A stretch of DNA of 64,000 bases, taken from the NCBI GenBank assembly GCA_003223395.1, contig QHUZ01000021.1, forward strand, positions 1 through 64,000, read 5' to 3'. The notes beneath the pieces were generated by a model, which was not told where the DNA came from, did not search any database, and saw nothing but the letters and a program-made list of their open reading frames with translations. Made by a program: the position numbers and the translations under genes. Below are positions 21,192-55,524 of the stretch, piece by piece (positions within the stretch are counted from its first letter, which is position 1; each line of letters starts with the position of its first letter). Source of the stretch: Gemmatimonadota bacterium. GTDB lineage: Bacteria; Gemmatimonadota; Gemmatimonadetes; Gemmatimonadales; GWC2-71-9.

Positions 21192-22249
21192 GCCGCGCCA
21201 TCGCTACGTTGCGCACCCTCGTGCCCGGAACCGCCGAGCCGGGCTGGCGCGAGCTGTGCGATGCCCTGGCGGACGTCCTCGATGGCTCGAGCGCCAACGG
21301 GCGCCCGATCGAACTCGACCGCCTGAAGTCGCGCGTCTACCGCCTCCGGGCGGGAGAGAACGGCACCGTACGCTCGCTCGTCGTGAAGCGCTACGATCCG
21401 TGGCTGGCGCGGCGTAACGAGCTGGTGTTGCGGCGGTGGTTGCCCGCGCTGGATCTGAGCGACCGTGCTCCACGCCTTCTCGCTACGGCGGTCGAGCGCG
21501 GCGGGGCCTGGGCGTGGCACGTGTACGAGGACCTCGCTGGTGACCCGCTCGATCCGCAGGACCCGGACCCGCTGCAGGTCGAAGCGGTCGTCGACGTGAT
21601 TGCGACGTTGCACACGCGCGCCGCCGGCCACGCCGTCGTCCCGCAATGCCGGCATTTCTGCGGCTCCCTGGGCGCGGGCTTTTTCGCGGCCAATGTGCGC
21701 GACGCCATTGCCGTTCTCGAAGCCCTGGCGCCGCCGCGCATCGAGCCGACACCCGCGCAAGGCGAGCTGCGCGGGCGATTGCTCGATCGTCTCTATCGGC
21801 TCCGCGGGGAGATCGGCGCGCGCACCGCCCTCCTCGAGGCATGGGGTGGGCCCGATACGTTGCTGCACGGCGACCTCTGGACCACAAACGCGCTCGTGCA
21901 CTCCGATCAGGCGCGCGGGACGCGCGTCGCGCGCCTGATCGACTGGGATCACGCGGCAGTGGGGCCGGCGACGTACGACCTGTCCACGTTCCTGTACCGG
22001 TTCCCCAAGGCCGAGCGTCCGTGGATTCTGGAGATGTACGCCCGCGCGCTCCGGCGCGCGGGCTGGCGGTTGCCGTCGGTGCGGGAGTTGAACGCGATGT
22101 TCGAGACCGCCGAGTACGCGCGGTACGCGAGTCGCATCATCTGGCCCGCGGTCGCGTTGCTGGAGGAGCGGGCGGCTTGGGGCTTCGATCAGCTCGCCGA
22201 AGTGGAGCGCTGGTTCGACGCCCTGGAGCTCGTCCTGCCCGAGCCATGA
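21188..22249 (+). CDS. APH-fold phosphotransferase 2
   Basis: 353 residues, ATGA overlap with the first kinase gene. Its catalytic loop is LHGDLWTTNALV (H227, D229, N234) and its metal site is LIDWDHAAVGP (D252), with the lysine region SLVVKRYDPWLARRNELVLR near residues 60-80. It is only distantly similar to its neighbour, so the two are diverged paralogues or independent recruits and probably act on different acceptors. Soluble and cytoplasmic, with no signal peptide. The phosphorylated substrate is unknown. Confidence 0.82.
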   Translation: MSRAIATLRTLVPGTAEPGWRELCDALADVLDGSSANGRPIELDRLKSRVYRLRAGENGTVRSLVVKRYDPWLARRNELVLRRWLPALDLSDRAPRLLATAVERGGAWAWHVYEDLAGDPLDPQDPDPLQVEAVVDVIATLHTRAAGHAVVPQCRHFCGSLGAGFFAANVRDAIAVLEALAPPRIEPTPAQGELRGRLLDRLYRLRGEIGARTALLEAWGGPDTLLHGDLWTTNALVHSDQARGTRVARLIDWDHAAVGPATYDLSTFLYRFPKAERPWILEMYARALRRAGWRLPSVRELNAMFETAEYARYASRIIWPAVALLEERAAWGFDQLAEVERWFDALELVLPEP

Positions 22250-23409
22250 CGACCGTGGTGGTATCGCCATTCGACGTGGTGAGTTTTCCCGACGGAGCCG
22301 GGCATTTCTGGGTGTACATGCAGTACGTGCAAGGCCTGCGGCGCCTCGGTTGCGACGTGTATTGGCTGGAGCAGGTCCAACGCGGTAAGCATCGCGACTT
22401 GGGGGCGCTCGCGACGTTCCGCGAGCGGATGGAGTGCTTCGGCATGGGCGACCGCGCCCTCCTGTACACGCGCGGCGACGGCACGCGGAACGCCGGCGAC
22501 GATGCTCCGATCGAGTGGCTCAACGGGTCCGACACCTCCGCCTGGGACGTGCTGCGCCAGGCCGATCTGTTGCTCAACTTCCATTACGGGATTGACCCTC
22601 GCATTCTGGGCGGCGCGCGCCGCACGGCGCTCGTCGACATCGATCCCGGCCTGACGCAGATCTGGATGAGCTCTGGGCAGATCCGCGTTCCCCACCACGA
22701 CGTGTACTTCACGATCGGCGAAACGGTCGGCACGGCGGCGGCGCCGTTCCCCGACTGCGGTCTCGCGTGGCGGCACATCCGCCCTCCCGTGTGCCTGGAG
22801 CTGTGGCCCTATGTCTACGACCCGCACTGCGAGTCGTTCACCACGGTCGCGGGGTGGTGGTCGGGGAAATGGGTCAAGGTGCGCGAGAACGGCACAGAGA
22901 TCTGCATCGACAACAACAAGCGCGTCGCCTTTCTCGAGTTCGCCGAGCTGGCAGGGCTGACGACGCAGCCGCTCGAGCTGGCGCTGCATCTCGCCGACGG
23001 CGACGGAGAAGACCGGCGCCTGCTCGAGCAGCGATGCTGGCGCGTGCGCCACGCCCGGGAAGTGGCCAGTACGCCGCAACACTATCAGGTGTACATCCAG
23101 CGCTCGCGCGGCGAGTGGAGCTGCGCGAAGCCGTTCTTCGTCAAGCTGCGGAACGCCTGGGTGAGCGATCGCACGGTGTGCTACCTCGCGAGCGGCAAGC
23201 CTGTGGTCGTCCAGCATACGGGGCCCAGCGCCTATCTGCCGCACGGCGAGGGGATGTTTCGGTTCCAGACCGTGGACGAAGCTGCGGCCTCGCTCGATGC
23301 CATCAACACCGCCTACGAGCGTCATTGCCGGGCGGCGCGCGAGATCGCGGTCCAGTACTTCGACGCGAAGCGCGTGCTGGCCGACCTGTTGCAAGTGGCG
23401 CTGCGATGA
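22246..23409 (+). CDS. Putative GT-B-like glycosyltransferase
   Basis: 387 residues. The ATG at 22246 is in an ATGA overlap; an open frame extends 600 bases further upstream but lies antiphase inside the kinase gene. The N-terminal half has a Rossmann-like start with a glycine-rich loop (FPDGAGHFWVYMQYVQGLRR). The C-terminal half has the nucleotide-sugar-binding pattern of CgeB-like/family 1 transferases (CYLASGKPVVVQHTGPSAYL, GEGMFRFQTVDEAAASL). The middle (about 200-290) is unusual and matches nothing I recognise. The likely role is addition of a sugar to the operon's product. The glycosyltransferase assignment rests on the C-terminal pattern only. Confidence 0.65.
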   Translation: MTTVVVSPFDVVSFPDGAGHFWVYMQYVQGLRRLGCDVYWLEQVQRGKHRDLGALATFRERMECFGMGDRALLYTRGDGTRNAGDDAPIEWLNGSDTSAWDVLRQADLLLNFHYGIDPRILGGARRTALVDIDPGLTQIWMSSGQIRVPHHDVYFTIGETVGTAAAPFPDCGLAWRHIRPPVCLELWPYVYDPHCESFTTVAGWWSGKWVKVRENGTEICIDNNKRVAFLEFAELAGLTTQPLELALHLADGDGEDRRLLEQRCWRVRHAREVASTPQHYQVYIQRSRGEWSCAKPFFVKLRNAWVSDRTVCYLASGKPVVVQHTGPSAYLPHGEGMFRFQTVDEAAASLDAINTAYERHCRAAREIAVQYFDAKRVLADLLQVALR

Positions 23410-24227
23410 CGCCGAGGATTGCGTTCCTGCTGCCGAGCTACTCCCGGCACAGCACCAGCCTCATGCCGCAGATCGTGCGTGCCGTGGCGGACGCGGGAGC
23501 GGACGTCGACGTCATCGTGCCGCCGAGCGGCGCGATCGACCTGGACGCCGTACCGGTCGCTCACGATCTCTACGTGCTGCGCAAAATGAGCGGGCTGGCG
23601 CTCAGTCTGGCGGGCGCGCTCCACCAGCTGGGCGCAACGATCGTCAATTCCTATCCCGCCACGGCCGCCCTGCGCGACAAGATCGTCGCTTCCCGGGTGC
23701 TGCACGCCGCCGGCGTGCCCACGCCTCCCGCGTTCGTCGCGGACAGCACGGACGACCTGGCTCCGTTGCTCGAGGACGGTCCGCTCGTCGTGAAGCCGTA
23801 CGGGGGTGGCGGCGGCCACCACGTGCAGGTCGTCCGGACCGCCGCCGAGCTCGCCTCGGTTCCGCAACGCCCGCGCGAGCCCGTGTTCGCGCAGCGATAC
23901 CTGCCGCATGACGGCCGTGACCGGAAGATCTATGCGATCGGGGACCGTCTGTTCGGCGTAAAGAAGGTCTTCCCGCGGCGGACCGATGAAGAGAAGCGCG
24001 GCGAGCCATTCGTGCTGTCGGCTGAGCTCGTCGACATCGTCGAGCGCTGCGGTCGGGCGTTCGGAGCGCAGCTGTACGGCGTCGATATCGTGGAGAGCGG
24101 CGGCCAGCCGTACGTGGTGGATATGGGCACCGCCCCCGGATACAAGGGTGTCCCGGACGCGCCGCGCCTAGTCGCCGAGTACCTCTACGCGGCGGCGTCC
24201 TCCCTCGAGCCGGCGGCGCGCGCATGA
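23406..24227 (+). CDS. ATP-grasp ligase-like protein (RimK/glutathione-synthetase type)
   Basis: 273 residues, ATGA overlaps on both sides. It has an N-terminal pre-grasp domain (MTPRIAFLLPSYSRHSTSLM), the central entry DKIVASRVLHAAGVPTPPAF, the ATP-binding lysine in LVVKPYGGGGGHHVQVV and the metal-site region LYGVDIVESGGQPYVVDMGT. ATP-grasp enzymes join a carboxylate to an amine or thiol through an acyl phosphate. In place of the usual glutamate-x-asparagine metal ligands it has DMG, so metal binding or activity may be altered. In this operon it could attach an amino acid or amine to a glycan precursor. Confidence 0.78.
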   Translation: MTPRIAFLLPSYSRHSTSLMPQIVRAVADAGADVDVIVPPSGAIDLDAVPVAHDLYVLRKMSGLALSLAGALHQLGATIVNSYPATAALRDKIVASRVLHAAGVPTPPAFVADSTDDLAPLLEDGPLVVKPYGGGGGHHVQVVRTAAELASVPQRPREPVFAQRYLPHDGRDRKIYAIGDRLFGVKKVFPRRTDEEKRGEPFVLSAELVDIVERCGRAFGAQLYGVDIVESGGQPYVVDMGTAPGYKGVPDAPRLVAEYLYAAASSLEPAARA

Positions 24228-41970: not shown

Positions 41971-43869
41971 TTAGCATTTCTTGGCCAGGATACGCTGGCG
42001 TTCCCCCTCAGTGACCATGTCGCGCGCGACGACGTCACGCACGATGCGGGCGACGAACACGTAGCCCCGCGCCTCGGCGACGAGCCAGCGGCGCCATTCG
42101 AGCTCGTCGAGTGCGGCGTGCAACCCGTCTCCCTTCAGATCCGTGGCACAGCCGATTCGCGCTGCCGCGACGCGCTCGCCGAGAATCGCCGCGGCGACGA
42201 GAGCCTGCTGCGCCGGCTTCGACAGGCAGCGAAACCCTACGCGGATCGCTGCGACGATCGTGTCGGGCAGGTCGCCGGGGAAGGTGGAGTCGAGGGTTCG
42301 CAACGGATGCGGCCAGGCACCATTCGTGGCTTCGAGATCGAGACCCTGCGCCATCGCGTGAAGGATCTCCACGGCGAGGAGCGGCAGCCCACCGGAATCT
42401 GCCGCGATGCGCCGCAACAGACGATCCAGGGCCTCGCCTTTGTATGACGGTAGCGCCCACTGGATCAGCTGCCGGATCGCCGCGGTGTCCAATTTGCCCA
42501 GCGAAATCGCGGCACCCGTTAGATCTCGTCCGATGCGGGCCCGGAACTCCGCAAGCTTCGGTGGCGCGGGCTCCGGCGTCGTGGCGAGCACGATGAGCAC
42601 CGGGGCGCGCGCGAGGTCGCGGGCGAGTCGTTCGATGATGTGATATGACGTCGGATCGATCCACTGCGCGTCATCGAAGATCAACAGCTGCGGGTGTTCG
42701 GCGGCCGTCACGCGGAGCACTTCGCTGATCGCGGCGTCGAGCGCCCAGGGGCTGCCTGCCGGACGCCGTGGCGGAAACCGTTCGGCCCACTCGCCGGCCT
42801 GGGCGGCGAGCGTCGCGAGCGCGCCGGGATTCGCGCCGGCGACACCGGGCGCATCCGCCAACCCGCCGCACGCGAGTCCCAGGATCGCACTGGCGGGATG
42901 CTCGACGTCGGCCGCGACGGCGCGCGTACCGATCACGACTCCCCCGCCGACCGCGGCGCGCGTCGCGAGCTCCTCCAGGAAGCGCGTCTTGCCGCCACCG
43001 GATTCGGCTTCGATCACGAGGAGCGCCAGTCGGCCATCGGCTGCGCGACGCCACTGCGTGAGCGCGGTCTCCAGCTCGCGGTCTCGGCCGAGCAGCGGCG
43101 CGCGACGCCACGTCACGCTCCGCTGCGGCGATAGCGCTTCTTTCGGCAGGTGCCAGGCGCGCCCGCTGCGCAGCCGCTCGACCATCGCCTGGGTTTCGGG
43201 CTCGATGGTCACATCCCCGTCGCGGCGCGCGTCCTTCACGAACCGGTCGAGCAGCTGCAGGGCGCCTGCCCGATCACCTGCTCCCGCGAGACGCCGCAGG
43301 TGCCCGCGCAGGGCGCGCTGTGACACCGGGTCCATCTCGCGGGCCCGGCCAAGCGGCCCGTCCGCGCCGAGCTCGTCGCCCGCATCGAGTCGCTCCTCGG
43401 CGTGGCGCAGCAACGCGTCCATGGTGCGTCCGTGCCAGAACGATCGCTCGACCGTCAGCCAGTCCTCGAAGCCGGCCGCGTCTGGGACCTTGAAGCCCTC
43501 GAGGAACTCACCGTTGATCATGGGCGTCGTATGCGACCAGTCGCGTTGCTGCGCCAGTTTCTCGAACTCCTCAGTGTCGAGCTCCACGGCGCCGTCCAGC
43601 AGCTGCACGACGTCGCCCGTGGCCTTGAGCCGGTCCTCGCCCACGTATTGGCGCAGGACCCGGATGGCCTCACGCACGGATTGGCGCGCGGCTCCGTCGT
43701 CCTTGTCCGGCCAGAGCAAACCAATCAGCTGCTCTCGCGTGCACCGGCGCTTGGGCGAGCGGGCGAGGTAGAGCAGGAGCGCGATGTTCTTTTTCCAGAG
43801 CAGCTGGGAGGGGGCTTCCGCGCCATCCATCGTGACTTCGAGCGTTCCCAAAGTCTGGAAGCGAATCAT
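41971..43869 (-). CDS. SARP/BTAD-type transcriptional regulator with ATPase domain
   Basis: 632 residues; the ATG overlaps the kinase stop (ATGA). Residues 1-95 are an OmpR-like winged helix (KNIALLLYLARSPKRRCTRE, LIGLLWPDKDDGAARQSVRE). Residues 100-235 are the bacterial transcriptional activation domain (FEDWLTVERSFWHGRTMDAL). Residues 255-600 are an AAA/STAND-type ATPase, with Walker A ESGGGKT (lysine 294) and Walker B LLIFDDAQW. It resembles AfsR without the TPR tail. SARPs activate adjacent biosynthetic operons from heptamer direct repeats, and a candidate set lies at 46618-46660, upstream of its own operon and of the divergent synthase operon. Confidence 0.87.
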   Translation of the reverse strand: MIRFQTLGTLEVTMDGAEAPSQLLWKKNIALLLYLARSPKRRCTREQLIGLLWPDKDDGAARQSVREAIRVLRQYVGEDRLKATGDVVQLLDGAVELDTEEFEKLAQQRDWSHTTPMINGEFLEGFKVPDAAGFEDWLTVERSFWHGRTMDALLRHAEERLDAGDELGADGPLGRAREMDPVSQRALRGHLRRLAGAGDRAGALQLLDRFVKDARRDGDVTIEPETQAMVERLRSGRAWHLPKEALSPQRSVTWRRAPLLGRDRELETALTQWRRAADGRLALLVIEAESGGGKTRFLEELATRAAVGGGVVIGTRAVAADVEHPASAILGLACGGLADAPGVAGANPGALATLAAQAGEWAERFPPRRPAGSPWALDAAISEVLRVTAAEHPQLLIFDDAQWIDPTSYHIIERLARDLARAPVLIVLATTPEPAPPKLAEFRARIGRDLTGAAISLGKLDTAAIRQLIQWALPSYKGEALDRLLRRIAADSGGLPLLAVEILHAMAQGLDLEATNGAWPHPLRTLDSTFPGDLPDTIVAAIRVGFRCLSKPAQQALVAAAILGERVAAARIGCATDLKGDGLHAALDELEWRRWLVAEARGYVFVARIVRDVVARDMVTEGERQRILAKKC

Positions 43870-46607
43870 CGTGCCCCCAGCGCTGCGCAGTTCAATGCAA
43901 GCGTACGCGTCCGAGCGGTGTCCGCCCGCGCTCCATAGGGAGCCGGGGCATCAAACCAATGTCGCACGACCGTGGCGTAGGCGGTACAGGCTTCGCCGCG
44001 GTCGGCTCGCCGGATGCCGTCGAGGAGCCGCGCGAGGCGCCAGCTCGCCAATGTGCCGAACGCCCAGTCGACGTCTGCCGCCTGGGGCAGACCGGTTGGG
44101 ACGCCCACGAGGTCCAGATGCTCGTGCCAGACCAGTTCGCTCTTGGCGCCTTCGATGTCACGGATCTGGGCGCGCCAGACGGCGCTTTGGAAATGCACGA
44201 TCGCTCTGAAAAACGGATCTACCCATCGTGCGACGGAGTCCACGTCAATCGGATCGAGCTGTTTGAGCGCGGCGCCGGGGTGGCCGGCAGCCGCAAGCGA
44301 TTCGGCGACGAGCAGGGCCTTCAGCTCGCGGGATGCGACCGGACGCACCTGTTCGGGGTTCTCGAGGAGCGCGCTCATCCACACCGCGCGATCGCGCAGT
44401 TTTTCGTCTTTGCTCAGGGTCCACCGATGAAGGCCCTCGAGCGCGTCCGCCGTCGCGGCTTTTCCTCCCTCGAGGAATGCGAGCGCCGTCTGCAGTTCCG
44501 CCGTAAACAGATCGAGATTCGCCTCGGGCGACACGTTCGCGGCCTTGGCCGCCAGGTTACGCGTATCCTCCAGCCGGCCGAGCGCCAGCGAGCCCATTGT
44601 CTCGGCGATCAGCGCGGAGCGGCGTACGTCCCGCGAGTGGTTCTTCTGCAGCATCTGCCCTAATGCGATCGTACCTCGCGGCACGTCGAACGTCGGCAGC
44701 ATCCGCGGCCCTGCGCCCAGGATGGGGCTGCTCTGGGCCTCTGGCGAATTCACGATCTGTACGGTGACGCCTTGTGCCTCGCTGGGCGAGACGAAGCGCC
44801 ATTCGAACCCGAGGCGCAGCAGCGCCCGGAGCACGGCTGAGAAGGGGTCGGGCACGCCGCTATGAGCTTGCAGCGAATCCAAGGCACTTTCCGCGCTGGC
44901 AGAGTCTCCTTCCGCGGTTGCGACCCACGCGAGATGCTCCCATGCCGGTCCAAAGTCCGGCCGCAGCCGCGCCGCCCGTTCGAACGCGGGAATCGCTTCG
45001 GAGCGGCGGTGGCCCACGAGCGGCCCACGGTGGAACAGCTCATCGCCCAGCTGAAACCATCCCAGGAAAAACTGCGGGTCGCGTTGGGTCACGGCGCGCA
45101 GCGTGTCGAGTCGTGCGTTCAGGGGCAGTTGTGCGGCGCGAATCAGACTGGCGTACTCACGCGGCAAAGAATCCGCGTGAGCCAGAACTGTCCTCATGCG
45201 ATCGGGGTCCTCGTCGATGCCGAGCCAACGCTCCACCTCCGTCATCCGCCAGAGACAGATCCAGCAGCTCGGGTCGGTGGCGACAGCCTTCTTGTACGCG
45301 GCGTACGCCTCCTCCCACTCTGCCTCGCCGACGAGTTGCTCCGCCTCGAGGAACTGAGCCAGGCCTTCGGCCCTGTGGGGGAGGGCGCGCGGCGGCAGCG
45401 ATGCGGCGAGTGGGCTGCGATCGCGCCAGACGCCGAGCACGATCTGGTAACTGGTCGAGTCACTGAGCGTGGGCCAACTCTCGAGTGGGACGTGAAATTC
45501 GGACGTCGGAATCCCACCGGTGAGGCGCAGGGCGACGTCGCCGCCTGTCACCGTCATTCGCGCCTGAACGACGAGCGACGCCGAGTCTACGAAATCGATA
45601 TGGTCGCGCAGGTCGGAGCGGACAAGCCGACCCAGTGAATCGGCGACCGCGCCTTGGGCGGGCGGACCGACGTAGTCGATTGCGCCAAACGTCACTCGCG
45701 GGTTGCTCGAATTGGCGAGCGTCGCTGGAGGGGGGGCGGCGAGGTGGATCGCCACGATAACCGCGCCAATGATGGTCTCTCTTCCGCCGATTGCCTCGAT
45801 CAATCTGGCGAGATCGGGGCCCTGGGTTTGCTCCAAGGCTTTCCGAAATGACCTTGGGTCGGGCCAGCGCTCCGCGGGGTCTTTCGCCATCGCCTTCTGC
45901 AGCACGCGCGCGAGATCGTGCTGAATGCCCTTCCAATCGACGTGGTCGCCCTGCTCGTGGAACCGGCGCCCTGATACCGCCTCATACAGGACGACCCCGG
46001 TGGAGTAGATGTCGGTCCGCGGCGTGACCGGTTGTCCCTCGACCTGCTCGGGCGCCATGTATTCCGCAGTGCCATCGCGATTGTGTGGGTCGCTTTCGTC
46101 ATCTGAAGGCGGCCGCGCGATCCCAAAGTCGCCGAGTAACGCGCGATCCGACAACACAAACACGTTGCTCGGCTTGATGTCGCGGTGCACGAATCCCAGG
46201 CGATGCATCGCCTGAAGACCGTGGAGTAGGTCAATGCCGATCCCTAGGACTTCGTCGGACCGGAGCGGACCCGCTTCGAGACGACGGTCGAGCGTCGGCC
46301 CGTTGACAAACTCCATGATGTAGTACTGCAGGCCGTCATTATCGCCGGTGTCGTGGATGACGATGACGTTGGGGTGTTTGACGTCGGCGAGCGTCTGCGC
46401 CTCGCGCAGAAATGCTTCAGCGCCGTCGGCGGTGAAAAGCTCGGGCCGAAGGACTTTGATCGCGACGCCCCGGTTCAGCCGGACCTGGTGCGCGCGATAC
46501 ACGACGCCCATTCCCCCCTCACCGATCCGGTGCTCCACCCGATAATCGGGCGCCACCGCCTCTTGCAGACGTGTCTTGAGCGGATCGAACTGGGGATCGA
46601 TCGTCAT
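43866..46607 (-). CDS. Ser/Thr protein kinase with C-terminal TPR-like tail
   Basis: 913 residues from the ATG at 46607, preceded by GGAGG; longer in-frame starts would invade the divergent promoter region. The kinase domain spans 20-265: GEGGMGVVYRAH, lysine 51, HRDIKPSN (141-148), D160FG and GTAEYMAPEQV. A short hydrophobic segment (277-292) may be a membrane helix. The remaining 600 residues are helical and TPR-like (AEWEEAYAAYKKAVATDPSC, AIPAFERAARLRPDFGPAWE). It is coupled to the SARP gene, the order expected of an AfsK/AfsR-type pair in which the kinase phosphorylates the regulator. That relation is inferred. Confidence 0.9.
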   Translation of the reverse strand: MTIDPQFDPLKTRLQEAVAPDYRVEHRIGEGGMGVVYRAHQVRLNRGVAIKVLRPELFTADGAEAFLREAQTLADVKHPNVIVIHDTGDNDGLQYYIMEFVNGPTLDRRLEAGPLRSDEVLGIGIDLLHGLQAMHRLGFVHRDIKPSNVFVLSDRALLGDFGIARPPSDDESDPHNRDGTAEYMAPEQVEGQPVTPRTDIYSTGVVLYEAVSGRRFHEQGDHVDWKGIQHDLARVLQKAMAKDPAERWPDPRSFRKALEQTQGPDLARLIEAIGGRETIIGAVIVAIHLAAPPPATLANSSNPRVTFGAIDYVGPPAQGAVADSLGRLVRSDLRDHIDFVDSASLVVQARMTVTGGDVALRLTGGIPTSEFHVPLESWPTLSDSTSYQIVLGVWRDRSPLAASLPPRALPHRAEGLAQFLEAEQLVGEAEWEEAYAAYKKAVATDPSCWICLWRMTEVERWLGIDEDPDRMRTVLAHADSLPREYASLIRAAQLPLNARLDTLRAVTQRDPQFFLGWFQLGDELFHRGPLVGHRRSEAIPAFERAARLRPDFGPAWEHLAWVATAEGDSASAESALDSLQAHSGVPDPFSAVLRALLRLGFEWRFVSPSEAQGVTVQIVNSPEAQSSPILGAGPRMLPTFDVPRGTIALGQMLQKNHSRDVRRSALIAETMGSLALGRLEDTRNLAAKAANVSPEANLDLFTAELQTALAFLEGGKAATADALEGLHRWTLSKDEKLRDRAVWMSALLENPEQVRPVASRELKALLVAESLAAAGHPGAALKQLDPIDVDSVARWVDPFFRAIVHFQSAVWRAQIRDIEGAKSELVWHEHLDLVGVPTGLPQAADVDWAFGTLASWRLARLLDGIRRADRGEACTAYATVVRHWFDAPAPYGARADTARTRTLALNCAALGAR

Positions 46608-46672: not shown

Positions 46673-48091
46673 ATGACGAGCCCCCGTCTGCAGGCGCAGC
46701 CGCTCGACTACCACTTCCTCGACGTCGCCGAGGGTGCGCAGCCGTTCCTGCGGAAGCTGTTCGAGAGCTTCGGCTTCCGGGCACTCCGCCTCTGGGTCGA
46801 TGCCGGTGTGTCGGCTGAATCGTTCGATCGCCAGGGGTGTGACGGACTGGTGACGGCGCTCGGCGAATGCGACGGCCGCACGATCGCACTTGCGTGGAGC
46901 GACTTCCGCGTCAAAGCGTCCTCGTACGGGCGGTGCAACTCGCGACGCTTTGCTGCCTTCTTACGTCAGCTGCGCGAGTCGCGAGACGCCATCCCGCTCA
47001 TCTACGTGGTCAATTCCGCGGGCCTCAGTCTCATGGAAGGCCGGAGCGCCTTCTCGGACGCGTTCGCGCTGTGGCCGGAATTGCTCCGGTATGCGGAACA
47101 GGGGCTATTGCTGACCTGCGCCGTCGGCAAATGTCTCGGACTGGCGCCGCTGCTGTACGGGTTGGGCCACTACCGCATCGCCGTGGCCCGTGGCACGCAC
47201 ATCAACCTGACGGGCCCCGAAGTCATCCGGCTGTTCTTCGGCACCGGTGTGGACTTCGAGACCCGGGCCGCCGCCGAGCGGTGTCTCGAGTGCCACGATC
47301 TCGTGCACGAGATCGTGCCGTCGCTCGAGGACGCGCTGCGGCTGTGCCGCGCTCTGATCGCGCGGCGGCCGGGCGCGGGTCCATCCCCCGAGCTGGGCGC
47401 GCGTACCGGCCCGCTCCTGCTCCAGATGCTGGACGGACCCCCGCGCGAAGTCGTGCCGGGCTGGTGCCCCCGCGTCCGGCTGTTCATCGGCACGCATCGC
47501 GGCAAGCCACTCGGCCTCTTCGTGAACCCGCTCGAGCGATCGAACAACATGATCACGGTGCGCACGCTGGAGAAATACGGAGCGGGGCTCGACCTCTTCC
47601 GCGCGCTGGGCCTGCCGATCGTGAGCGTGCTCGATTCGCCGGGGATCGATCCGCGCTGCGAACAAAGCGACGCGAACAACATCCGCCGCATTCTCGCGGT
47701 CGGTGAGAAGATCATCCGCTATCCGCATGGCGCGATGGGCGTCGTGACCGGCCGCTGTTTCGGCGGCGCGACGGCGCTCTCGATTCCCAAAGTGTTCGGC
47801 GGGACGCGGACGATCGCGCTGCCCGGCGCGCAGTTCGGCGTCATGCACGAGCGCATCGTCGAGCAGGTCTTGAGCGGCAGCCCGCGCCTGCTCGCGGAAT
47901 GGCGCACCGCTGCGGCGGCCCAGGACGCATCGTTCAGCGATCTCCTGGCGCAAGGTGCACTCGATGCCGTCGTGCAGCCGGAAGACCTGTCTGCAGAGCT
48001 CGATCGCTTCCTCGAGTGCGAGGGCGACGGTCCGCGGCTGGTGGGGGCACGGCGGCGTCGCAGCGCGCCACACATGGTGCTGGCGCGATGA
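46673..48091 (+). CDS. Divergent carboxyltransferase-domain protein (acyl-CoA carboxylase beta-like)
   Basis: 472 residues from the ATG at 46673. Two crotonase-like halves are visible. The N-half (GRTIALAWSDFRVKASSYGR, VVNSAGLSLMEGRSAFSDAF, INLTGPEVIRLFFGTGVDFE) and the C-half (MITVRTLEKYGAGLDLFRAL, VSVLDSPGIDPRCEQSDANN, GAMGVVTGRCFGGATALS) follow propionyl-/acetyl-CoA carboxylase beta subunits. The DSGGAR-type oxyanion motif of the N-half has become NSAGLS, and no biotin carboxylase or biotin carrier gene lies nearby. It may carboxylate or decarboxylate an acyl-CoA to prime the adjacent KASIII enzymes. First gene of a seven-gene coupled operon. Confidence 0.75.
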   Translation: MTSPRLQAQPLDYHFLDVAEGAQPFLRKLFESFGFRALRLWVDAGVSAESFDRQGCDGLVTALGECDGRTIALAWSDFRVKASSYGRCNSRRFAAFLRQLRESRDAIPLIYVVNSAGLSLMEGRSAFSDAFALWPELLRYAEQGLLLTCAVGKCLGLAPLLYGLGHYRIAVARGTHINLTGPEVIRLFFGTGVDFETRAAAERCLECHDLVHEIVPSLEDALRLCRALIARRPGAGPSPELGARTGPLLLQMLDGPPREVVPGWCPRVRLFIGTHRGKPLGLFVNPLERSNNMITVRTLEKYGAGLDLFRALGLPIVSVLDSPGIDPRCEQSDANNIRRILAVGEKIIRYPHGAMGVVTGRCFGGATALSIPKVFGGTRTIALPGAQFGVMHERIVEQVLSGSPRLLAEWRTAAAAQDASFSDLLAQGALDAVVQPEDLSAELDRFLECEGDGPRLVGARRRRSAPHMVLAR

Positions 48092-49092
48092 ACGCGCGCA
48101 TCGCGGGCGTCGGCCACTATCTGCCGGGACAGCCGATCACCAATGAGGAGCTGATCGCGCGCCACCGGCTGCGCATCAAACCGTACTTCATCCGCAATCA
48201 CGTGGGTGCCGAAACGCGGCACTTCGCGGCTCCGGACCAGGCGACGTCTGATCTGGCCGTCGAAGCGGCGGCGCGGGCGATCGACGCGAGCGGCGTTCCG
48301 GCGACGGAGATCCAGCGCATCCTGCTCGCGACCGTGTCGGGCGACTATCCGACCCCCGCGACCGCGTGCATCGTGCAGCGCAAGCTCGGCCTGCGGGGGC
48401 GCGCGGCGATCGACGTCGTTGGCGCGTGCTCGGGATTCCTGCAGGCGCTCGACCTGGGCGCGCGCTGCGTGGCAACCGGCGAAGGCCCAGTGCTCGTGAT
48501 CGGCGCCGACGTGCGGTCGCGCCAGCTCAACTTCAGCGACCTCCGCACTGCCTTCCTGTATGGTGACGGGGCAGGGGCGGTCGTGCTCACCGCGGGCCCG
48601 GACGGCGCCGAGATCCGGCATTCGATTCTCACGGCTGACGGCGAGGGTGCCGAAGCCGTGTACATCCCCGCGGGAGGTTCCCGCGAGCCGATCACGCAAG
48701 CGGGACTCCTGAGTCAGCGCAATTGCATCACCATGACCGACGGGCGGCGGGTGGCGGACGCGGCGCGCGCCGGATTTCGCCATCTCGCCGACCGACTCGT
48801 CGCCGAGACATGCGTGCCCGCGTGCGACGTCGGGTTCGTCTGCCTCCATCAGCCGAATCTCTTCCTCGTCCGCCAAATCCTGTGCGACCTCGCGATCGCC
48901 GAGGAGCGCACGTGGATCAATTTCCCGGCCTATGGCAACACGACCTCGGCGTCAGTCCCGATCGCGCTGTCGGAGGCGGTCGCCGCCGGGAGAATCGCTG
49001 CGGACTCGTGGGTCTGGCTCGGCGCCGTGGGCGCCGGGTTCGCCGGCGCGATTCAGCTCGTGCGTTGGGGCACCGTCCGGAGCGCCGCATGA
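48088..49092 (+). CDS. Beta-ketoacyl synthase III-like enzyme 1
   Basis: 334 residues, ATGA overlap with the carboxyltransferase gene. The thiolase fold has the complete KASIII triad: cysteine 114 in VVGACSGFLQAL, histidine 254 in CLHQPNLFLV and asparagine 284 in AYGNTTSASVP, with the glycine-rich end WLGAVGAGFAGAIQL. Such enzymes condense an acyl-CoA with a malonyl unit, or acylate other acceptors. Its operon position and a second homologue downstream argue for specialised rather than housekeeping fatty-acid synthesis. No acyl carrier protein is encoded in the operon. Confidence 0.88.
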   Translation: MNARIAGVGHYLPGQPITNEELIARHRLRIKPYFIRNHVGAETRHFAAPDQATSDLAVEAAARAIDASGVPATEIQRILLATVSGDYPTPATACIVQRKLGLRGRAAIDVVGACSGFLQALDLGARCVATGEGPVLVIGADVRSRQLNFSDLRTAFLYGDGAGAVVLTAGPDGAEIRHSILTADGEGAEAVYIPAGGSREPITQAGLLSQRNCITMTDGRRVADAARAGFRHLADRLVAETCVPACDVGFVCLHQPNLFLVRQILCDLAIAEERTWINFPAYGNTTSASVPIALSEAVAAGRIAADSWVWLGAVGAGFAGAIQLVRWGTVRSAA

Positions 49093-49793
49093 TCCTGGTC
49101 ACCGGCGGGAGCGAAGGCATCGGGTTCGCGTGCGCGCGCGAGCTGCTGGACCGGACGACGGTCTCCGTGTTGGTCACCGGCCGCTCGCAATGCAAGCTCG
49201 CCGGCGCCCGCGAGGCTCTGAACGGTCCGGCACGTGCGCGCTTAGCCACGCTCGCGTGCGATCAGGCGAGCGCGAGCGACGTCGCGACGCTCGTGTCGCT
49301 CATCGAGCGAACGGAGCGCATCGACGCGGCGATCCTCACGGTCGGCGTGAATCCGGCGTATGCCGAAGGACCGCTGCGCGTACATGCGCTGTCCCTGGCG
49401 ACCATCGAGCAGACCATCCGCACCAATTGCACCCACGCGCTGCAGTTGACGGCCGCGCTGCTCGACCGCTTTCGGCGCCAGCGCGCCGGAGTCCTGGTGT
49501 GGATCGGCTCGCAGGCGCAGGCGGTCGGCCTTCCGGGCGCGGGCCTCTACTGCGCAACCAAATCCTTTCTGTCCGGCCTCGCGCGCACCGCGCACCACGA
49601 GTACGCGGCGCGCGGCATCCGCGTCCACCTCGCCCATCCGGGGATCGTCCGCACGCCGCGCACCGCGGCAGTCGCCGACGAATTTGCGCGACGGCACAGC
49701 CTGCACGTTGCTGAAGCTCCCCAGGTGGCTCGACAAGTCGTGGACCTGCTGCTCGACGGCGATCAGGCGGTCGTGGAGGTGAACCTGTGTTGA
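49089..49793 (+). CDS. Short-chain dehydrogenase/reductase
   Basis: 234 residues, ATGA overlap. It has the cofactor motif TGGSEGIG (5-12), asparagine 113, serine 141 and the Y154-x3-K158 pair, so the full SDR tetrad is present. GRS after the second strand (residues 31-33) favours NADPH, though weakly. In this operon it probably reduces the beta-keto product of a KASIII condensation to a hydroxyl. Substrate not determined. Confidence 0.9.
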   Translation: MILVTGGSEGIGFACARELLDRTTVSVLVTGRSQCKLAGAREALNGPARARLATLACDQASASDVATLVSLIERTERIDAAILTVGVNPAYAEGPLRVHALSLATIEQTIRTNCTHALQLTAALLDRFRRQRAGVLVWIGSQAQAVGLPGAGLYCATKSFLSGLARTAHHEYAARGIRVHLAHPGIVRTPRTAAVADEFARRHSLHVAEAPQVARQVVDLLLDGDQAVVEVNLC

Positions 49794-50563
49794 TCCTCGA
49801 TCTGCTCTGGTGGATCGGATGGGCGTGGTTTGCCGCGTGGATCGCGCTGCCGCTGGTCGCGGTGCCGCTGCTTGGCATCGTTCCCGGTTTCGTCGTATGG
49901 GCCGTGCTCGCGCCGTGGTCGGCGCTGCTCGGCATGGCGACGCTGCACCGCGTCCTGCCCGACAGCGAGCCCGGCACGTTCCGTCTCCCGGGAGATGGCG
50001 GCGGCGTGCGCTGGGCCTTGAAGGCGTGGGCTCCGTCGCTGTATCTCACGCTCTTCCAGCCGCTGTGCTTCACCAGTCGCTTCTTCCAGCTGTTCGCCCT
50101 GCGTGTGTTCGGCGCGCGCCTCGCACCGGGAGCCTGGCTCACGTCGCGGACGATCGTACGCGAGCCCCATCACGTACGCATCGGCTTGCGGAGCCTGATC
50201 GGCGAGTATGCGCACCTGATCTGCTCCTATCAGCCGCGCCCGGGTCTGCTCATCGTCGCGGCGATCACCGTCGGGGACGACTCGCTGGTGGGCGGCCATA
50301 CCCATCTCGCGCCGGGCGTCACCATCGGATCGCGGTGTGTCATCGAGCACGCCGTCGCGATCGGTGCGCGGACTCATATCGGCGATGATTCCCGCATCGG
50401 CGCCGGCACGACGATCTATAACGCTGCCCGGATCGGGCGCGGCGTGTTCGTGGGGAAGAATTGCCTGATCCCAAGCGGTGCGATCATCGCGGACGGCACA
50501 CGCGTGCCCGACGGCACCGTCTGGACCGCCGCGAGCAGGCGCGAGCTCGAGGCCGCCTCGTGA
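49787..50563 (+). CDS. Membrane-anchored left-handed beta-helix (hexapeptide) acyltransferase
   Basis: 258 residues. The GTG at 49787 has GGAGGT six bases upstream and overlaps the SDR gene by 7 bp. Two hydrophobic helices come first (LLWWIGWAWFAAWIALPLVA, VPGFVVWAVLAPWSALLGMA). From about 125 to 245, hexapeptide repeats follow ([LIV]-G-x-x-x-x), for example IGLRSLIGEYAHLI, VTIGSRCVIEHAVAIGARTH and IGDDSRIGAGTTIYNAARIG. Such enzymes form trimers and O- or N-acylate sugars, lipids or amino compounds. Anchoring at the membrane suits a lipid substrate. Confidence 0.83.
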   Translation: MLILDLLWWIGWAWFAAWIALPLVAVPLLGIVPGFVVWAVLAPWSALLGMATLHRVLPDSEPGTFRLPGDGGGVRWALKAWAPSLYLTLFQPLCFTSRFFQLFALRVFGARLAPGAWLTSRTIVREPHHVRIGLRSLIGEYAHLICSYQPRPGLLIVAAITVGDDSLVGGHTHLAPGVTIGSRCVIEHAVAIGARTHIGDDSRIGAGTTIYNAARIGRGVFVGKNCLIPSGAIIADGTRVPDGTVWTAASRRELEAAS

Positions 50564-52191
50564 TCGCCGCGTGGGTGTTCCGGCTGGCGTTGCAGCGGTT
50601 CCGCACCGCATGCGGGGATCCGCTGGCGGCGCAGGCAGCGCAGCTGCGCCGAATTCTCAGGGCCGCCGCGCGCAGCGAATTCGGCGTGCGCCATCAATTC
50701 ACGCGCATCGCGCGACTCGGTGATCCCCGCGAGATGATCCGGGCGTTCCAGACGGCCGTGCCCGTACGGTCCTACAAGGAGATGCGGGACGACTTGGACG
50801 CCGTGTACGCCGGTCGCTGGGAGATGCTGTGCCCGAGCCGGCCACTCCGATTCGCGATGACGGCCGGATCCACCGGGCACTACAAGTACATCCCCGTAAC
50901 CCGGGAGTACCACCGCGAGGTCGGCCGCAGCGCGATGATCTTCAACGGCGCGCTGGAGGCATGCTTTCCAGCGACGCGCAGCCTCAAGACGCAGTTTCTC
51001 GTCGGGTCCGCGGAGGGCGGTCGCTCGCCCGCGGGCATCCCGCAAGGGTTCGCGTCTGGCTTCAACTATCAGAACCTGCCGCGGTTCGTGCGGCGCCGGT
51101 TTGTCGCGCCGTATTGGATCTTCACGATCGACGATCCGGACGAGCGTGCGTACGCCGCCGGCCGCATTCTCATGGCCGAGCCACGGCTCGGCGTGCTGAG
51201 CGCGATTTCGCCGGTCAACCTCATCAACCTGCGGCAAGCGCTGGACCGCAACGCGGAACGCCTCATCGCCGATGTGGCGGGCGGCACGCTGACCACTCGG
51301 GGTTCGGCGGCGGTCGCCGGCGCGTGGTCCAGTCGCCGCGACCCGCGCCGCGCTCGTGCTTTGGACGATGCGTGGCGGACAAACGGCACGCTTCCCACCA
51401 GCCAGCTGTTTCCGGAGTTGCGCGTGCTGGTCTCGTGGCAGGGTGGCAACATGAGCTACTACCTCGATGATGCGCGTCGTGCGTTCGGGATCGACCAGAC
51501 CTTCGAGTTTCCGATCTCGGCGAGCGAGGGAGTCTTCGCGATCCCGCTGCACGGGAACCGTCCGGGTGGCGCGCTGGCGGTGACCTCGCATTTCCTGGAA
51601 TTCATTTCCGAAGGCGGTGGTACGCCGCTGCGCGCCGACGAGCTGGAACTGGGGCGTGAATACCGCATTGTCGTGACGAACGGCGGCGGGCTGTATCGCT
51701 ACGACATGGAGGACATCGTCCGTGTCACGTCGAGCTTTCGCGCGACGCCCGTGATCGAGTTCGTCAGCAAGCAGGACCGCCAGATCTCGGTGAGCAATGA
51801 GCGGCTCACGGAGCTGGATGTAACGCGCGCGATGCAGGAAGCCAGCCGCGAACGGCCCCGGCGGTTCCCGGAATTCCTGTTCGTGCCGTGCTCCGATCGC
51901 CGGTATCGGGTGGTGTTGGATGCGGCGGCGTGGCCCGGCGACGACCTCACCACTTTCGCGCAGGCGATCGAGCGTGAACTGCGCGAGGCGGCGAAGGGCT
52001 ACGACTTCGAGCGGGAAGATGCGCTCCTGTCGCCGCTGCAGCTGATCGTCACGGCGCCCGACGAACTCCGCAACTGGTTGCGCCGCCGCGAGCAGGACGC
52101 GCTGCCCAACGCGCAGATCAAGCCTTTGCACCTCACCAACGAGTTCAACGCGCACCAGGCCTTCACCGCGGTCGCCACGTATGCGGCTTGA
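50560..52191 (+). CDS. GH3-like acyl-adenylating enzyme (acyl-acid amido synthetase family)
   Basis: 543 residues; the GTG overlaps the previous stop (GTGA). GH3 hallmarks are the ATP loop TAGSTGHYKYIPVT (101-114), FPISASEGVFAIPL and the adenylate-binding NGGGLYRYDMEDIVRV (near 375-390), with a mobile C-terminal domain beyond about 430. Plant GH3 enzymes activate a carboxylic acid as acyl-AMP and join it to an amino acid, and bacterial homologues are mostly unstudied. Here it could conjugate the finished acyl chain to an amine. The length is close to plant members. Confidence 0.87.
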   Translation: MIAAWVFRLALQRFRTACGDPLAAQAAQLRRILRAAARSEFGVRHQFTRIARLGDPREMIRAFQTAVPVRSYKEMRDDLDAVYAGRWEMLCPSRPLRFAMTAGSTGHYKYIPVTREYHREVGRSAMIFNGALEACFPATRSLKTQFLVGSAEGGRSPAGIPQGFASGFNYQNLPRFVRRRFVAPYWIFTIDDPDERAYAAGRILMAEPRLGVLSAISPVNLINLRQALDRNAERLIADVAGGTLTTRGSAAVAGAWSSRRDPRRARALDDAWRTNGTLPTSQLFPELRVLVSWQGGNMSYYLDDARRAFGIDQTFEFPISASEGVFAIPLHGNRPGGALAVTSHFLEFISEGGGTPLRADELELGREYRIVVTNGGGLYRYDMEDIVRVTSSFRATPVIEFVSKQDRQISVSNERLTELDVTRAMQEASRERPRRFPEFLFVPCSDRRYRVVLDAAAWPGDDLTTFAQAIERELREAAKGYDFEREDALLSPLQLIVTAPDELRNWLRRREQDALPNAQIKPLHLTNEFNAHQAFTAVATYAA

Positions 52192-53209
52192 GGCACCAGC
52201 CGTCCGCATCGTAGACGTCGAAACCTGCGACTTCGGGATGATGTCCGCGTACGACACGGCCACCGTCCTCCGCGCGGCCTGTCCGGACGAGGCAGAGCGC
52301 TACCTCACGTCGTCGGCGTCGCGGCAGTTGATCGCCCAACTCGGCGTTGCGCGGCGCTATCTGACGCAGATTCCTGGGGCGCCGCCGCACCCTGCGCGCC
52401 TCAATGCGCTCGACCTGGCGCGCTCGGCGGTGGCGCGGCTCCAGGCGCGACGCGCGCATGATCTCCGCAGTCTCGATGCGCTGATCTTTGTCAGCACATC
52501 AAATCCCAATCCGTGCAACAGCCAGGCGGCGCTGCTTGCGGCGCAGTGCGGGATCAGGGCTTCGTGCATGGATCTCAAGGCGGGGTGCAGCGGCGGCGTG
52601 CTCGGCCTCATGCAGGCCGCGCTCCTGCTGCAAGCCGGATGTAAGCGTGTGCTGGTCGTCATGGCGGAGAACCTCTCGCAGTTCACGCCACCGGACGATC
52701 TCCGCATGCTGCTGACGGTAGGGGACGGCGCGGCCTGCGTACTGCTCGAGCGGACGCCGAACGGATCCGGGTTCCTGTCGATGATTCACGGCACCGAGCC
52801 TGCACTGGCCGGCTCGATGACCGTGTCGTCGCGATTCCCGCCGGTTGATGCGAATGCGCGGTACCAGTACGAGTTCCACGACGTCAACCGGGCCGCCGAG
52901 TTCGTGCGCGCCCGTTGGCGCACGCTGTTTTGCGAGAGTCTCGCCTCCGCCGGCGTCTGCCGGGAAGGTCTCGGGTACGCACTGTTCCATCAGACACACG
53001 CCGCGCAGATGGACGACCTCATGACGGACCTGCGGCTCGATCCCGCGGCCGTCCCGGTGGTCGTGCGCGACTACGGCAACATGGGCACGCCCACATTCGC
53101 CGTCGCCCTGGCGGGGATCCACTCGAGACTTCTGCCGGGCGACCGAATCCTGTTGCAAGCGGTCGGCGGCGGCGTGAGCTGGTGCGCGATCGTCGCGGAG
53201 CACCAGTGA
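52181..53209 (+). CDS. Beta-ketoacyl synthase III-like enzyme 2
   Basis: 342 residues; the ATG lies 11 bp inside the GH3 gene. The triad is cysteine 136 in LKAGCSGGVLGL, histidine 270 in LFHQTHAAQM and asparagine 300 in DYGNMGTPTF, ending in LQAVGGGVSWCAIV. It differs widely from the first KASIII-like protein, so the pair probably performs distinct steps, such as condensation and ester or amide-forming acyl transfer. It is closer in feel to the 3-oxoacyl-ACP synthases of secondary metabolism, but this is inference. Confidence 0.86.
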   Translation: MRLEAPAVRIVDVETCDFGMMSAYDTATVLRAACPDEAERYLTSSASRQLIAQLGVARRYLTQIPGAPPHPARLNALDLARSAVARLQARRAHDLRSLDALIFVSTSNPNPCNSQAALLAAQCGIRASCMDLKAGCSGGVLGLMQAALLLQAGCKRVLVVMAENLSQFTPPDDLRMLLTVGDGAACVLLERTPNGSGFLSMIHGTEPALAGSMTVSSRFPPVDANARYQYEFHDVNRAAEFVRARWRTLFCESLASAGVCREGLGYALFHQTHAAQMDDLMTDLRLDPAAVPVVVRDYGNMGTPTFAVALAGIHSRLLPGDRILLQAVGGGVSWCAIVAEHQ

Positions 53210-55524
53210 AGCTCGCGCAGCTGGTCGTACGCCGGCGCGGCTGGATCGCGGTGCTGTGGGTGGCCGCCGCGGTCGTGTTCGTCCCACGCGCGAGCCGGCT
53301 GCCGAACGTCCTCCAGACCAGTGCGCGCGTCGAGGGAAGCGAATCCGCCGCCGTCGAGCGGCTGCTCCAGGGGCCACTCGCATCGGCCTACGCGCGGTAT
53401 GCAGTCCTCGTCATCGGTGGTGTGCCGTCCCCGGCAACGGCGGAAGGAGCGGCGGCGCTGCGGCGCGTGATTCAACCTGTGGCCGCTGCGCCGCAGGTCG
53501 CGGGGGTGTTTTCCTATCTGGACCGAGCGGACAGCCTGCTGGTGAGTCCTGCTGGTCGCGGCACGCTCGTGATCGTGGGACTCGCCGCCGACAGCGCCAC
53601 GAAACCCGACCGCATCATTCCGCATTTGCGCAGTCTCACCGAGCGGCTGGCCGGGGCGTTGCGCCGGGATTATCCCGACATCGTGCTGCGCTGGACTGGT
53701 GAGACGCCACTCAACGTCGATCTGCGACGGACCAGCGCCGCCGATGTGCAGCACGCTGAGCGCCGGGCGCTGCCGGTGACGGCGGCGCTGTTAGTGCTCG
53801 CCTTCGGCGCGCTGGCGGCGGCGCTCGTGCCCGTGGTGGCGGGTGCGGTGGCGATCGCGATCGCGTTGGGTGCGGCCGCCGTCGCGGCCGGCATCTGGCC
53901 GCTGTCGATCCTCCTGCAGAGCGTCGTCCCGATGCTCGGCCTCGGGTTGGGTATCGATTACGCGCTGCTGATGGTGAGCCGGTTCCGCGACGCACTCGGT
54001 GAGGGCCGAGAGCCGAGCGCCGCGGCCGCAGAAGCGGCGCAGCATGCCGGCCACACGATTCTGCTCTCGGCGGCGACGGTCGCCCTGGGTTTCCTGGTGC
54101 TGCTCACCGTCCCGCTCAACGAGATGCGCGCGATCGCGGCGGCTGGCCTTCTCGTCGTCGTCACGTCGGCGCTGCTCGCGACGACGCTGCTGCCCGGCGT
54201 CCTCGCGACGCTCGGGGCGCGCATCGATTGGGGCCGAGTGCGGCGCGCGACGTTCCGGCGGACTTCGGTCGAGTGGTGGCGGCGCTGGGGTCGCTGGGTC
54301 ACTGGCCATCCGTGGGTTGCCCTCGTCGCCGGCGGCCTGCCGCTCGTGGTCCTGGCGCTGCAGGCGATCGGGCTCCAGTCGGGGCTGCCGCGCGGCGACT
54401 GGCTGCCGGCGTCGATGGAATCCGCGCGCGCGTTGAGCGATCTGCGAAGGATGGGGCGGAGCGGGATGATCCAAACCCTGCGGATCGTCGTGACCATGCC
54501 GGAGCACGTCTCGGTCCGGCAGCCCGCGGGCTGGGATGCCGTGGCTCGGTACACGCAAACGTTGCAGGCGGATCCTCGGGTCGCGCGCGTGCGATCCATC
54601 GTGACCGTGCTCGAGGCCGCCGGGATGAGCCGCGCAAAACTCGCGAGCACTCCGGGCTTCACGACACGGCGCTTGACCGCCGGCTTGCTCAGCCGGGACG
54701 GGCGACTCGCACTCGTCGAGGTGATGCCGGGCGAGTCGGTCGCACCGAACGAGGTGCTCGCGTTCGTACGCGAGCTACGCGCCATGGGTACGCGGCGGCT
54801 TGGGATCGGCGGCGCTTCGCTCACGGTCGGCGGGCTGCCGGCATTCAATACCGACTATCAGGACGCCGTGGCCGGTCGCTTCTGGCACATCGTCGCGCTC
54901 GTCGTGGGCGGGACCATGTTGGCGCTGTTCGTCGGGTTCCGATCGGTCTTGGTTCCGCTCAAAGCGGTGGTCCTGAACCTCCTGTCGGTCGGCGCAGCAT
55001 TCGGCGCGCTGAAACTGGTCTTTCAGGACGGCCACGGCGCGCGCCTGCTGGGCGTGACACAGCCCCTGGGCGCGGTGTTCTCGTCATTGCCCGTGGTGGT
55101 GTTCTGCATCGTGTTCGGCCTGAGCATGGACTATGAGGTGTTTCTCATGACGCGCATTCGCGAAGCCCGCAACGCCGGCATGAGCGATCACGACGCCATC
55201 GTCGAGGGCCTGGGAAGTACGGCGCAGGTCATCACGAACGCCGCGGCGATCATGCTGGTCGTGTTCGCGGCCTTCACTCTCGGTGACGTGCTGCTGACCA
55301 AACTGCTGGGCTTCGCGCTCGCCGTGGCGGTGCTGCTCGACGCCACGATCGTCCGAATGATCGTGGGGCCGGCGCTGTTACAGCTGGCGGGAAAGTGGAA
55401 CTGGTGGCCGGCGGGGAACCGCCTACCGGAGTCGCGGGAGCTTGGGGGGCTTCGGCCCGTGGCGGACGGCGCCCCGCACGGCTACGTACTCGAGCGGCGT
55501 CCCGGTCCGCGCACATCGCAGTAG
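53206..55524 (+). CDS. MMPL/RND-family exporter
   Basis: 772 residues; the GTG overlaps the previous stop (GTGA). It has twelve predicted helices with two large extracytoplasmic loops after helices 1 and 7. The proton-relay regions typical of MmpL transporters are present in both halves: LGLGIDYALLMVSRFRDALG and IVFGLSMDYEVFLMTRIREA. MmpL and hopanoid transporters move lipids and lipid-like metabolites out of the inner membrane. As the last gene it is the likely exporter of the operon's acyl product. The 3' end overlaps the convergent gene by 102 bp. Confidence 0.92.
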   Translation: MKLAQLVVRRRGWIAVLWVAAAVVFVPRASRLPNVLQTSARVEGSESAAVERLLQGPLASAYARYAVLVIGGVPSPATAEGAAALRRVIQPVAAAPQVAGVFSYLDRADSLLVSPAGRGTLVIVGLAADSATKPDRIIPHLRSLTERLAGALRRDYPDIVLRWTGETPLNVDLRRTSAADVQHAERRALPVTAALLVLAFGALAAALVPVVAGAVAIAIALGAAAVAAGIWPLSILLQSVVPMLGLGLGIDYALLMVSRFRDALGEGREPSAAAAEAAQHAGHTILLSAATVALGFLVLLTVPLNEMRAIAAAGLLVVVTSALLATTLLPGVLATLGARIDWGRVRRATFRRTSVEWWRRWGRWVTGHPWVALVAGGLPLVVLALQAIGLQSGLPRGDWLPASMESARALSDLRRMGRSGMIQTLRIVVTMPEHVSVRQPAGWDAVARYTQTLQADPRVARVRSIVTVLEAAGMSRAKLASTPGFTTRRLTAGLLSRDGRLALVEVMPGESVAPNEVLAFVRELRAMGTRRLGIGGASLTVGGLPAFNTDYQDAVAGRFWHIVALVVGGTMLALFVGFRSVLVPLKAVVLNLLSVGAAFGALKLVFQDGHGARLLGVTQPLGAVFSSLPVVVFCIVFGLSMDYEVFLMTRIREARNAGMSDHDAIVEGLGSTAQVITNAAAIMLVVFAAFTLGDVLLTKLLGFALAVAVLLDATIVRMIVGPALLQLAGKWNWWPAGNRLPESRELGGLRPVADGAPHGYVLERRPGPRTSQ

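Follow-up and report, generated by a model that had tools for sequence, protein, structure and literature searches.

Enzymes of the GH3 family are widespread in bacteria, yet the pathway reported for a bacterial GH3 is that of OlsH from Singulisphaera acidiphila, which makes N-acyl ornithine, an N-acyl amino acid, from free fatty acids (2025; PMC12493201). In the resulting OlsH/OlsI route to ornithine lipids, a second acyl transfer follows the formation of the N-acyl amino compound. The assembly and export of mycolates in Corynebacteriales proceeds through a series of carboxyltransferase, condensing enzyme, SDR and MMPL exporter (AccD4, Pks13, CmrA and MmpL3). Here we describe a row of seven overlapping genes from a Gemmatimonadota bacterium (family GWC2-71-9; assembly GCA_003223395.1), which lies within positions 1 to 64,000 of contig QHUZ01000021.1, the stretch analysed in full and referred to below as the window. 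The row encodes a divergent carboxyltransferase (CT), two 3-ketoacyl synthases III (KASIII-1 and KASIII-2), an SDR ketoreductase, a left-handed beta-helix (LbH) acyltransferase, a GH3 enzyme and an MMPL exporter. It is well supported as an operon dedicated to acyl-chain biosynthesis, conjugation and export, and we tentatively propose that its product is N-acylated and exported, the best candidate being an aminolipid of the acyloxyacyl type or, put more broadly, a 3-hydroxy/acyloxy aminolipid or acyl amide, a reading that we favour while allowing that it could readily prove wrong.

Among described pathways, the synthesis of ornithine lipids by OlsH/OlsI comes closest; the operon shares with it a bacterial GH3 predicted to make an N-acyl amino compound and, in our proposal, the subsequent transfer of a second acyl group. 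It differs from that pathway in that its GH3 scores far below the OlsH cut-off, OlsI is lacking, and a CT, two KASIII enzymes, an SDR, an LbH and an MMPL are added. Compared to mycolate assembly, the operon has KASIII enzymes instead of a type I polyketide synthase (PKS), GH3 instead of FadD32 and no mycolyltransferase, while its likeness to MmpL3 is at the level of the superfamily. No paper describing the seven-gene set was found in a literature search of partial coverage that did not extend to cluster databases, and no match to a described pathway emerged, so that the combination presents itself as a new arrangement of known enzyme families. The original prediction, made from the letters of the window, had called the operon uncharacterised; this stands insofar as no described pathway matches, but since the demonstration of OlsH activity the lipid chemistry of bacterial GH3 enzymes is no longer unknown.

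A seven-gene operon conserved in a second genus

All seven open reading frames were found exactly where they had been predicted, to the base and on the same strand (Table 1), with successive overlaps from CT to MMPL of 4, 4, 7, 4, 11 and 4 bp. A simple gene caller based on codon usage finds the same seven genes. The family assignments made earlier likewise hold, as a Pfam scan returned Carboxyl_trans, ACP_syn_III with ACP_syn_III_C (twice), adh_short, Hexapep, GH3/GH3_M/GH3_C and MMPL, each above its gathering score. Promoter and terminator scans found no site.

The full set is found again, with gene order and relative orientation unchanged, in the public metagenome-assembled genome SZUA-544 (G414 in our genome set), which belongs to another genus of the family. 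There the genes overlap as well, most overlaps being identical, including the 11-bp overlap between GH3 and KASIII-2, and the two copies share 64-79% amino-acid identity across the seven genes. At a dS close to 1, the ratio of nonsynonymous to synonymous substitution rates (dN/dS) lies at ~0.15-0.31 for each of the seven genes, every one of which is under purifying selection. Because the same genes, their order and most of their overlaps recur in SZUA-544, and because selection acts on each of them, the row goes beyond a chance arrangement. A gene order that fails to recur in homologous genomes had been named in advance as the observation that would speak against the operon; SZUA-544 keeps the order. 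In a third genus (genome G237), KASIII-1, SDR, LbH and GH3 are present on a 3.7-kb contig whose two ends cut into KASIII-1 and GH3.

The unit is rare. A search of 102 family genomes with CT gave one other true copy, that of SZUA-544, and CT matches were obtained in two of 288 genomes of the order and one of 395 of the phylum. GH3 genes of the operon's clade occur in 3/102 family and 2/395 phylum genomes, and KASIII-2 in one of 394 genomes of the class. Altogether, three of the 102 family genomes have the unit, the third being the partial set of G237, and both CT and GH3 are absent from the other searched members of the window's own genus. A contig scan with two short CT peptide patterns, which is weak evidence on other phyla, returned SZUA-544 and a Parapontixanthobacter CT that, at 20% identity, is too remote to count, and plasmid searches yielded distant relatives only. 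The idea of conservation across Gemmatimonadota therefore does not hold, given the rarity of the unit in the searches of family, order, class and phylum, but the ordered set does exist and has been preserved in a second genus.

Table 1. Genes of the operon and the next gene upstream, in window coordinates.
Feature	Position	Strand	Start	Length (aa)	Match or source of call	Catalytic residues
CT, divergent biotin-dependent-type acyl-CoA carboxyltransferase	46673-48091	+		472	PF01039, 60 bits	
KASIII-1, 3-ketoacyl synthase III	48088-49092	+		334	NF006829, 258.1 bits	C114-H254-N284
SDR ketoreductase	49089-49793	+		234	PF00106, 118 bits	S141-Y154-K158, N113
LbH hexapeptide acyltransferase, two N-terminal membrane helices	49787-50563	+	GTG	258	PF00132, 60 bits	
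GH3 acyl-adenylate-forming amide synthetase	50560-52191	+	GTG	543	PF03321, 138.9 bits; GH3_M; GH3_C	
KASIII-2, second divergent KASIII	52181-53209	+		342	PF08545; PF08541	C136-H270-N300
MMPL, RND-superfamily exporter	53206-55524	+	GTG	772	PF03176, 230.6 bits	
Divergently oriented Ser/Thr kinase, weak TPR signal; next gene upstream	43866-46607	-			Gene caller	

Enzymes of the operon and their active sites

The GH3 enzyme retains T101AGSTGHYK, I319SASEG and G377LYRYDMED, the three nucleotide motifs as listed for plant GH3 enzymes and OlsH (PMC12493201), as well as a C-terminal lysine (Lys521), and is predicted to be an acyl acid amido synthetase that joins an acid to an amine in an ATP-dependent manner. 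It falls into the same superfamily as OlsH, and its sole NCBIfam match is the OlsH model NF052613, on which it scores 90.3 bits (75.4 bits for the SZUA-544 copy), the equivalog cut-off being 620. In planctomycetes the O-acyltransferase OlsI, an alpha/beta-hydrolase, is encoded in one operon with OlsH; Pfam found no alpha/beta-hydrolase among the seven genes.

Both KASIII enzymes keep the Cys-His-Asn triad of the FabH/PqsD/BioZ family, which for KASIII-1 was aligned to the genome's own FabH. KASIII-1 passes the general beta-ketoacyl-acyl carrier protein (ACP) synthase 3 model (NF006829, cut-off 249), whereas KASIII-2 reaches 109 bits on that model and is far from all models, although it scores 58.9 and 51.1 bits on its two Pfam families against gathering scores of 24 and 26.6; its identity to KASIII-1 is ~25%. 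Neither enzyme reaches the FabH subfamily cut-off, and a threonine or another small residue replaces the phenylalanine gate. In FabH a bulky phenylalanine leads to a preference for acetyl-CoA, while a small residue, such as the threonine of the Mycobacterium tuberculosis enzyme, goes along with a preference for long chains (PMC3734052). KASIII-1 has Thr89 at the position of Phe87 in Escherichia coli FabH, where KASIII-2 shows either Cys112 or a gap. Both enzymes thus lack the bulky residue that restricts E. coli FabH to acetyl-CoA, in agreement with our proposal. The operon also provides a ready-made case in which to learn what a pair of dedicated KASIII enzymes contributes to a single pathway.

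The CT scores well above the Pfam gathering score of 22.3 and finds its best PDB match in Streptomyces coelicolor PccB. With the PccB/AccD5/AccD6 carboxyltransferases it shares the two-part carboxyltransferase homology and the biotin-side oxyanion Gly-Ala, but its identity to the CTs compared is 16-23%, its N-domain bears Gly-Leu, and no alpha subunit is encoded nearby. A small tree groups the CTs of both operon copies together on a very long branch, apart from the other CTs compared. Upon alignment to PccB, Gly182-Gly183 corresponds to Gly156-Leu157, Gly419-Ala420 is kept as Gly365-Ala366 and Asp422 is replaced by Ala368; in PccB these positions are the acyl-CoA oxyanion site, the biotin-side oxyanion site and the specificity position, respectively. 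The Gly-Leu replacement is common to the window and SZUA-544 copies. The original prediction held the CT oxyanion motif to be not intact, which applies to the acyl-CoA side in the N-domain but not to the biotin side in the C-domain; the remaining readable active sites are intact, as it had said, namely the KASIII triads, the SDR residues, the GH3 motifs and the Glu-His pair of LbH. Structure prediction was poor for CT (mean predicted local distance difference test score, pLDDT, of 38 from a 2-row alignment). This CT thereby offers an opportunity, provided by nature, to learn how a carboxyltransferase behaves when its oxyanion site is Gly-Leu.

The LbH protein resembles LpxA, LpxD and PglD in its left-handed beta-helix repeats and in a histidine conserved in the same kind of motif, Glu187-His188, which is invariant across the three orthologues. 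In LpxA, LpxD and PglD the corresponding histidine is catalytic. LbH differs from these enzymes by two hydrophobic N-terminal segments, read as membrane helices, and, with LpxD, LpxA and NeuD as its nearest NCBIfam models, stays below all equivalog cut-offs. Its structure prediction was also poor (mean pLDDT 59, 3-row alignment); a fold search with this model gave insignificant matches only, many of them to other repeat or beta-helix folds, and we draw nothing from it. The MMPL protein has the proton-relay Asp-Tyr pairs D251-Y252 and D642-Y643 and 11 hydrophobic segments, some of which span more than one helix, and its nearest solved structures are those of MmpL3. It scores 277 bits on the model of the trehalose monomycolate exporter MmpL3 (NF052608, cut-off 1400), and unrelated MMPLs of the same phylum, taken from SZUA-544 and G237 as controls, score 272-286 bits.

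As predicted, no carrier protein is encoded among the seven genes. Elsewhere the genome contains an ordinary fab operon, in which genes of FabH, FabG and ACP size are recognised (gene order read from sizes and position), an additional KASIII on contig C107 and further CTs on C21, C27, C1 and C11. Biotin carboxylases are encoded on C100 and C21, and a biotin/lipoyl domain lies beside the C100 biotin carboxylase (AccC). Since FabH, FabG, ACP, CTs, AccB and AccC are thus held separately, the operon enzymes are extra and dedicated, and able to borrow carriers.

Proposed pathway and rival readings

For the aminolipid that we tentatively favour, we infer the substrates and the order of all reactions as follows. 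CT, together with the cell's single AccB/AccC-type biotin carboxylase set, would supply a carboxylated extender, either of the malonyl type or a longer 2-carboxyacyl unit, which KASIII-1 would condense with a medium or long acyl primer on the housekeeping ACP. SDR would then reduce the 3-keto to the 3-hydroxy group, and GH3 would adenylate the acid and pass the acyl group to an amine or amino acid to give an amide. The membrane-bound LbH may add a second acyl group from acyl-ACP, onto the 3-hydroxyl or onto an amine or hydroxyl of the head group, and KASIII-2 may carry out another condensation or transfer an acyl group, before MMPL would extract the product from the inner membrane. Besides the open KASIII gates, the intact GH3 motifs and lysine, the precedent of OlsH and the putative catalytic histidine and membrane anchor of LbH argue for this scheme, as do the recurrence of the whole unit with its overlaps in a second genus, the purifying selection on every gene, the separate housekeeping enzymes and a distant GH3 that adjoins a close relative of this MMPL in another genome of the family (see below). 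Several points weigh against it: the operon encodes no thioesterase that would give GH3 its free acid, and neither a carrier nor a biotin protein; CT activity is unsure because the acyl-CoA oxyanion site is altered; no residue evidence fixes the amine; the resemblance of MMPL to MmpL3 is generic and of superfamily level; and a soluble small molecule would be just as conceivable as a product.

The main rival is, in place of a membrane lipid, a diffusible small metabolite such as an N-acyl amino acid, a polyketide-like amide, a pyrone or a signal, for which KASIII-1, CT and SDR would build a short polyketide-type chain and MMPL would serve as efflux pump. It owes this rank to the presence of distant relatives of the parts in clusters for natural products: one of GH3 lies in a Streptomyces PKS cluster, one of KASIII-1 beside CT, ACP and KAS next to a PKS, and one of KASIII-2 beside ACP, thioesterase, acyl-CoA ligase and a nonribosomal peptide synthetase (NRPS). 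The patchy spread among the family genomes would suit a secondary metabolite, too. The unit itself, however, lacks genes for a PKS, an NRPS, a carrier, a regulator or resistance, the search brought up no closer cluster, and a membrane-anchored LbH together with MMPL points to a lipid, so that we consider a diffusible product unlikely, though a serious contender. A different question is whether CT carboxylates at all. As a biotin-independent decarboxylase-like or structural subunit it would leave the pathway to start from housekeeping malonyl-ACP, as the Gly-Leu replacement in both copies, the deep divergence of CT and the operon's lack of a biotin protein might suggest; the leucine may nevertheless be tolerated, because backbone NH groups bind the oxyanion, and with the biotin-side Gly-Ala kept and a dN/dS of ~0.23 such a role seems improbable.

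The same CT would have to act on long acyl-CoA if the product were mycolate-like. Here CT would carboxylate the chain at C2, KASIII-1 would join a second chain to give an alpha-branched 3-keto acid, SDR would reduce it and MMPL would export the conjugate, in analogy to AccD4-Pks13-CmrA-MmpL3. The functional set is the same, the KASIII gates are open, the very divergent CT has alanine at the Asp422 position of PccB, and MmpL3 is the best solved-structure match of MMPL. Yet the homology of CT and KASIII-1 with AccD4 or Pks13 does not extend to details, SDR is no nearer to mycolate reductase than many SDRs are, and we know of no KASIII that uses 2-alkylmalonyl extenders. The likeness to MmpL3 we rejected as support for mycolate export, as the control MMPLs score equally, and overall this route appears quite improbable. 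In a more elaborate form, a Gram-negative analogue of mycolates, KASIII-1 and/or KASIII-2 would fuse two long chains, one of them a long-chain 2-carboxyacyl-CoA from CT, to an alpha-branched 3-hydroxy acid that GH3 amidates, LbH acylates and MMPL exports; we regard this as a speculative idea with a slim chance of being right, which, if true, would reveal an outer-membrane aminolipid class not described before. Similarly slight is the prospect of an OlsH-type ornithine-lipid pathway, in which GH3 would make the lyso-ornithine lipid and another operon enzyme would be the O-acyltransferase. OlsH is indeed the only NCBIfam match of GH3, and SDR would provide the 3-hydroxylated acyl chain that ornithine lipids typically contain; against this stand the wide shortfall of both GH3 copies from the OlsH cut-off, the missing OlsI hydrolase and the varied contexts of the distant GH3 relatives examined. 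Whichever product is made, the operon sets a GH3 in a complete-looking unit for building, conjugation and export with its own chain-making enzymes, and the product can therefore be sought directly by expressing the seven genes.

Other GH3 loci and neighbouring genes

Other GH3 genes, within the phylum and elsewhere, adjoin Rieske oxygenases, a desaturase or a D-aminopeptidase-like gene, and since the neighbours of distant GH3 genes vary, GH3 serves several bacterial pathways. In three loci (L026, L027 and L042, from Gemmatimonadota and Burkholderia arboris) a distant GH3 lies beside a VanA-type Rieske oxygenase, in Burkholderia with a fatty-acid desaturase, and this pairing is possibly a recurrent lipid module. 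One of these loci, from another genome of the family (G282; L027 8083-15010), has its GH3 and Rieske oxygenase divergent from an MMPL that shares 53% identity with that of the window, a hint that this type of MMPL is associated with GH3 products. On a mobilizable enterobacterial plasmid, from Citrobacter portucalensis (NZ_CP134684.1; L043 7887-17392), GH3 is the first gene of a run that also encodes several radical SAM proteins, an N-acetyltransferase and a PAP2 phosphatase. A Streptomyces plasmid (NZ_CP027299.1; L041 1-13410) carries GH3 within a type I PKS cluster together with an extra threonyl-tRNA synthetase gene, which is possibly a self-resistance copy.

Next to the operon, the upstream kinase and a BTAD/AAA transcriptional regulator (together 41971-46607, - strand) form divergent neighbours, 65 bp from the CT start, and the next downstream gene, likewise on the - strand, is found at 55423. 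The surroundings of the SZUA-544 copy contain no counterpart of any flanking gene of the window, which places the kinase outside the unit. Further upstream, at 16041-24227 (+ strand), the window holds a second tightly packed row, encoding a GH2-like and GT2 fusion, an ABC exporter, two APH-type kinases, an unassigned 387-aa protein and a RimK-like ATP-grasp ligase, which has the look of a cluster of its own for biosynthesis and export.

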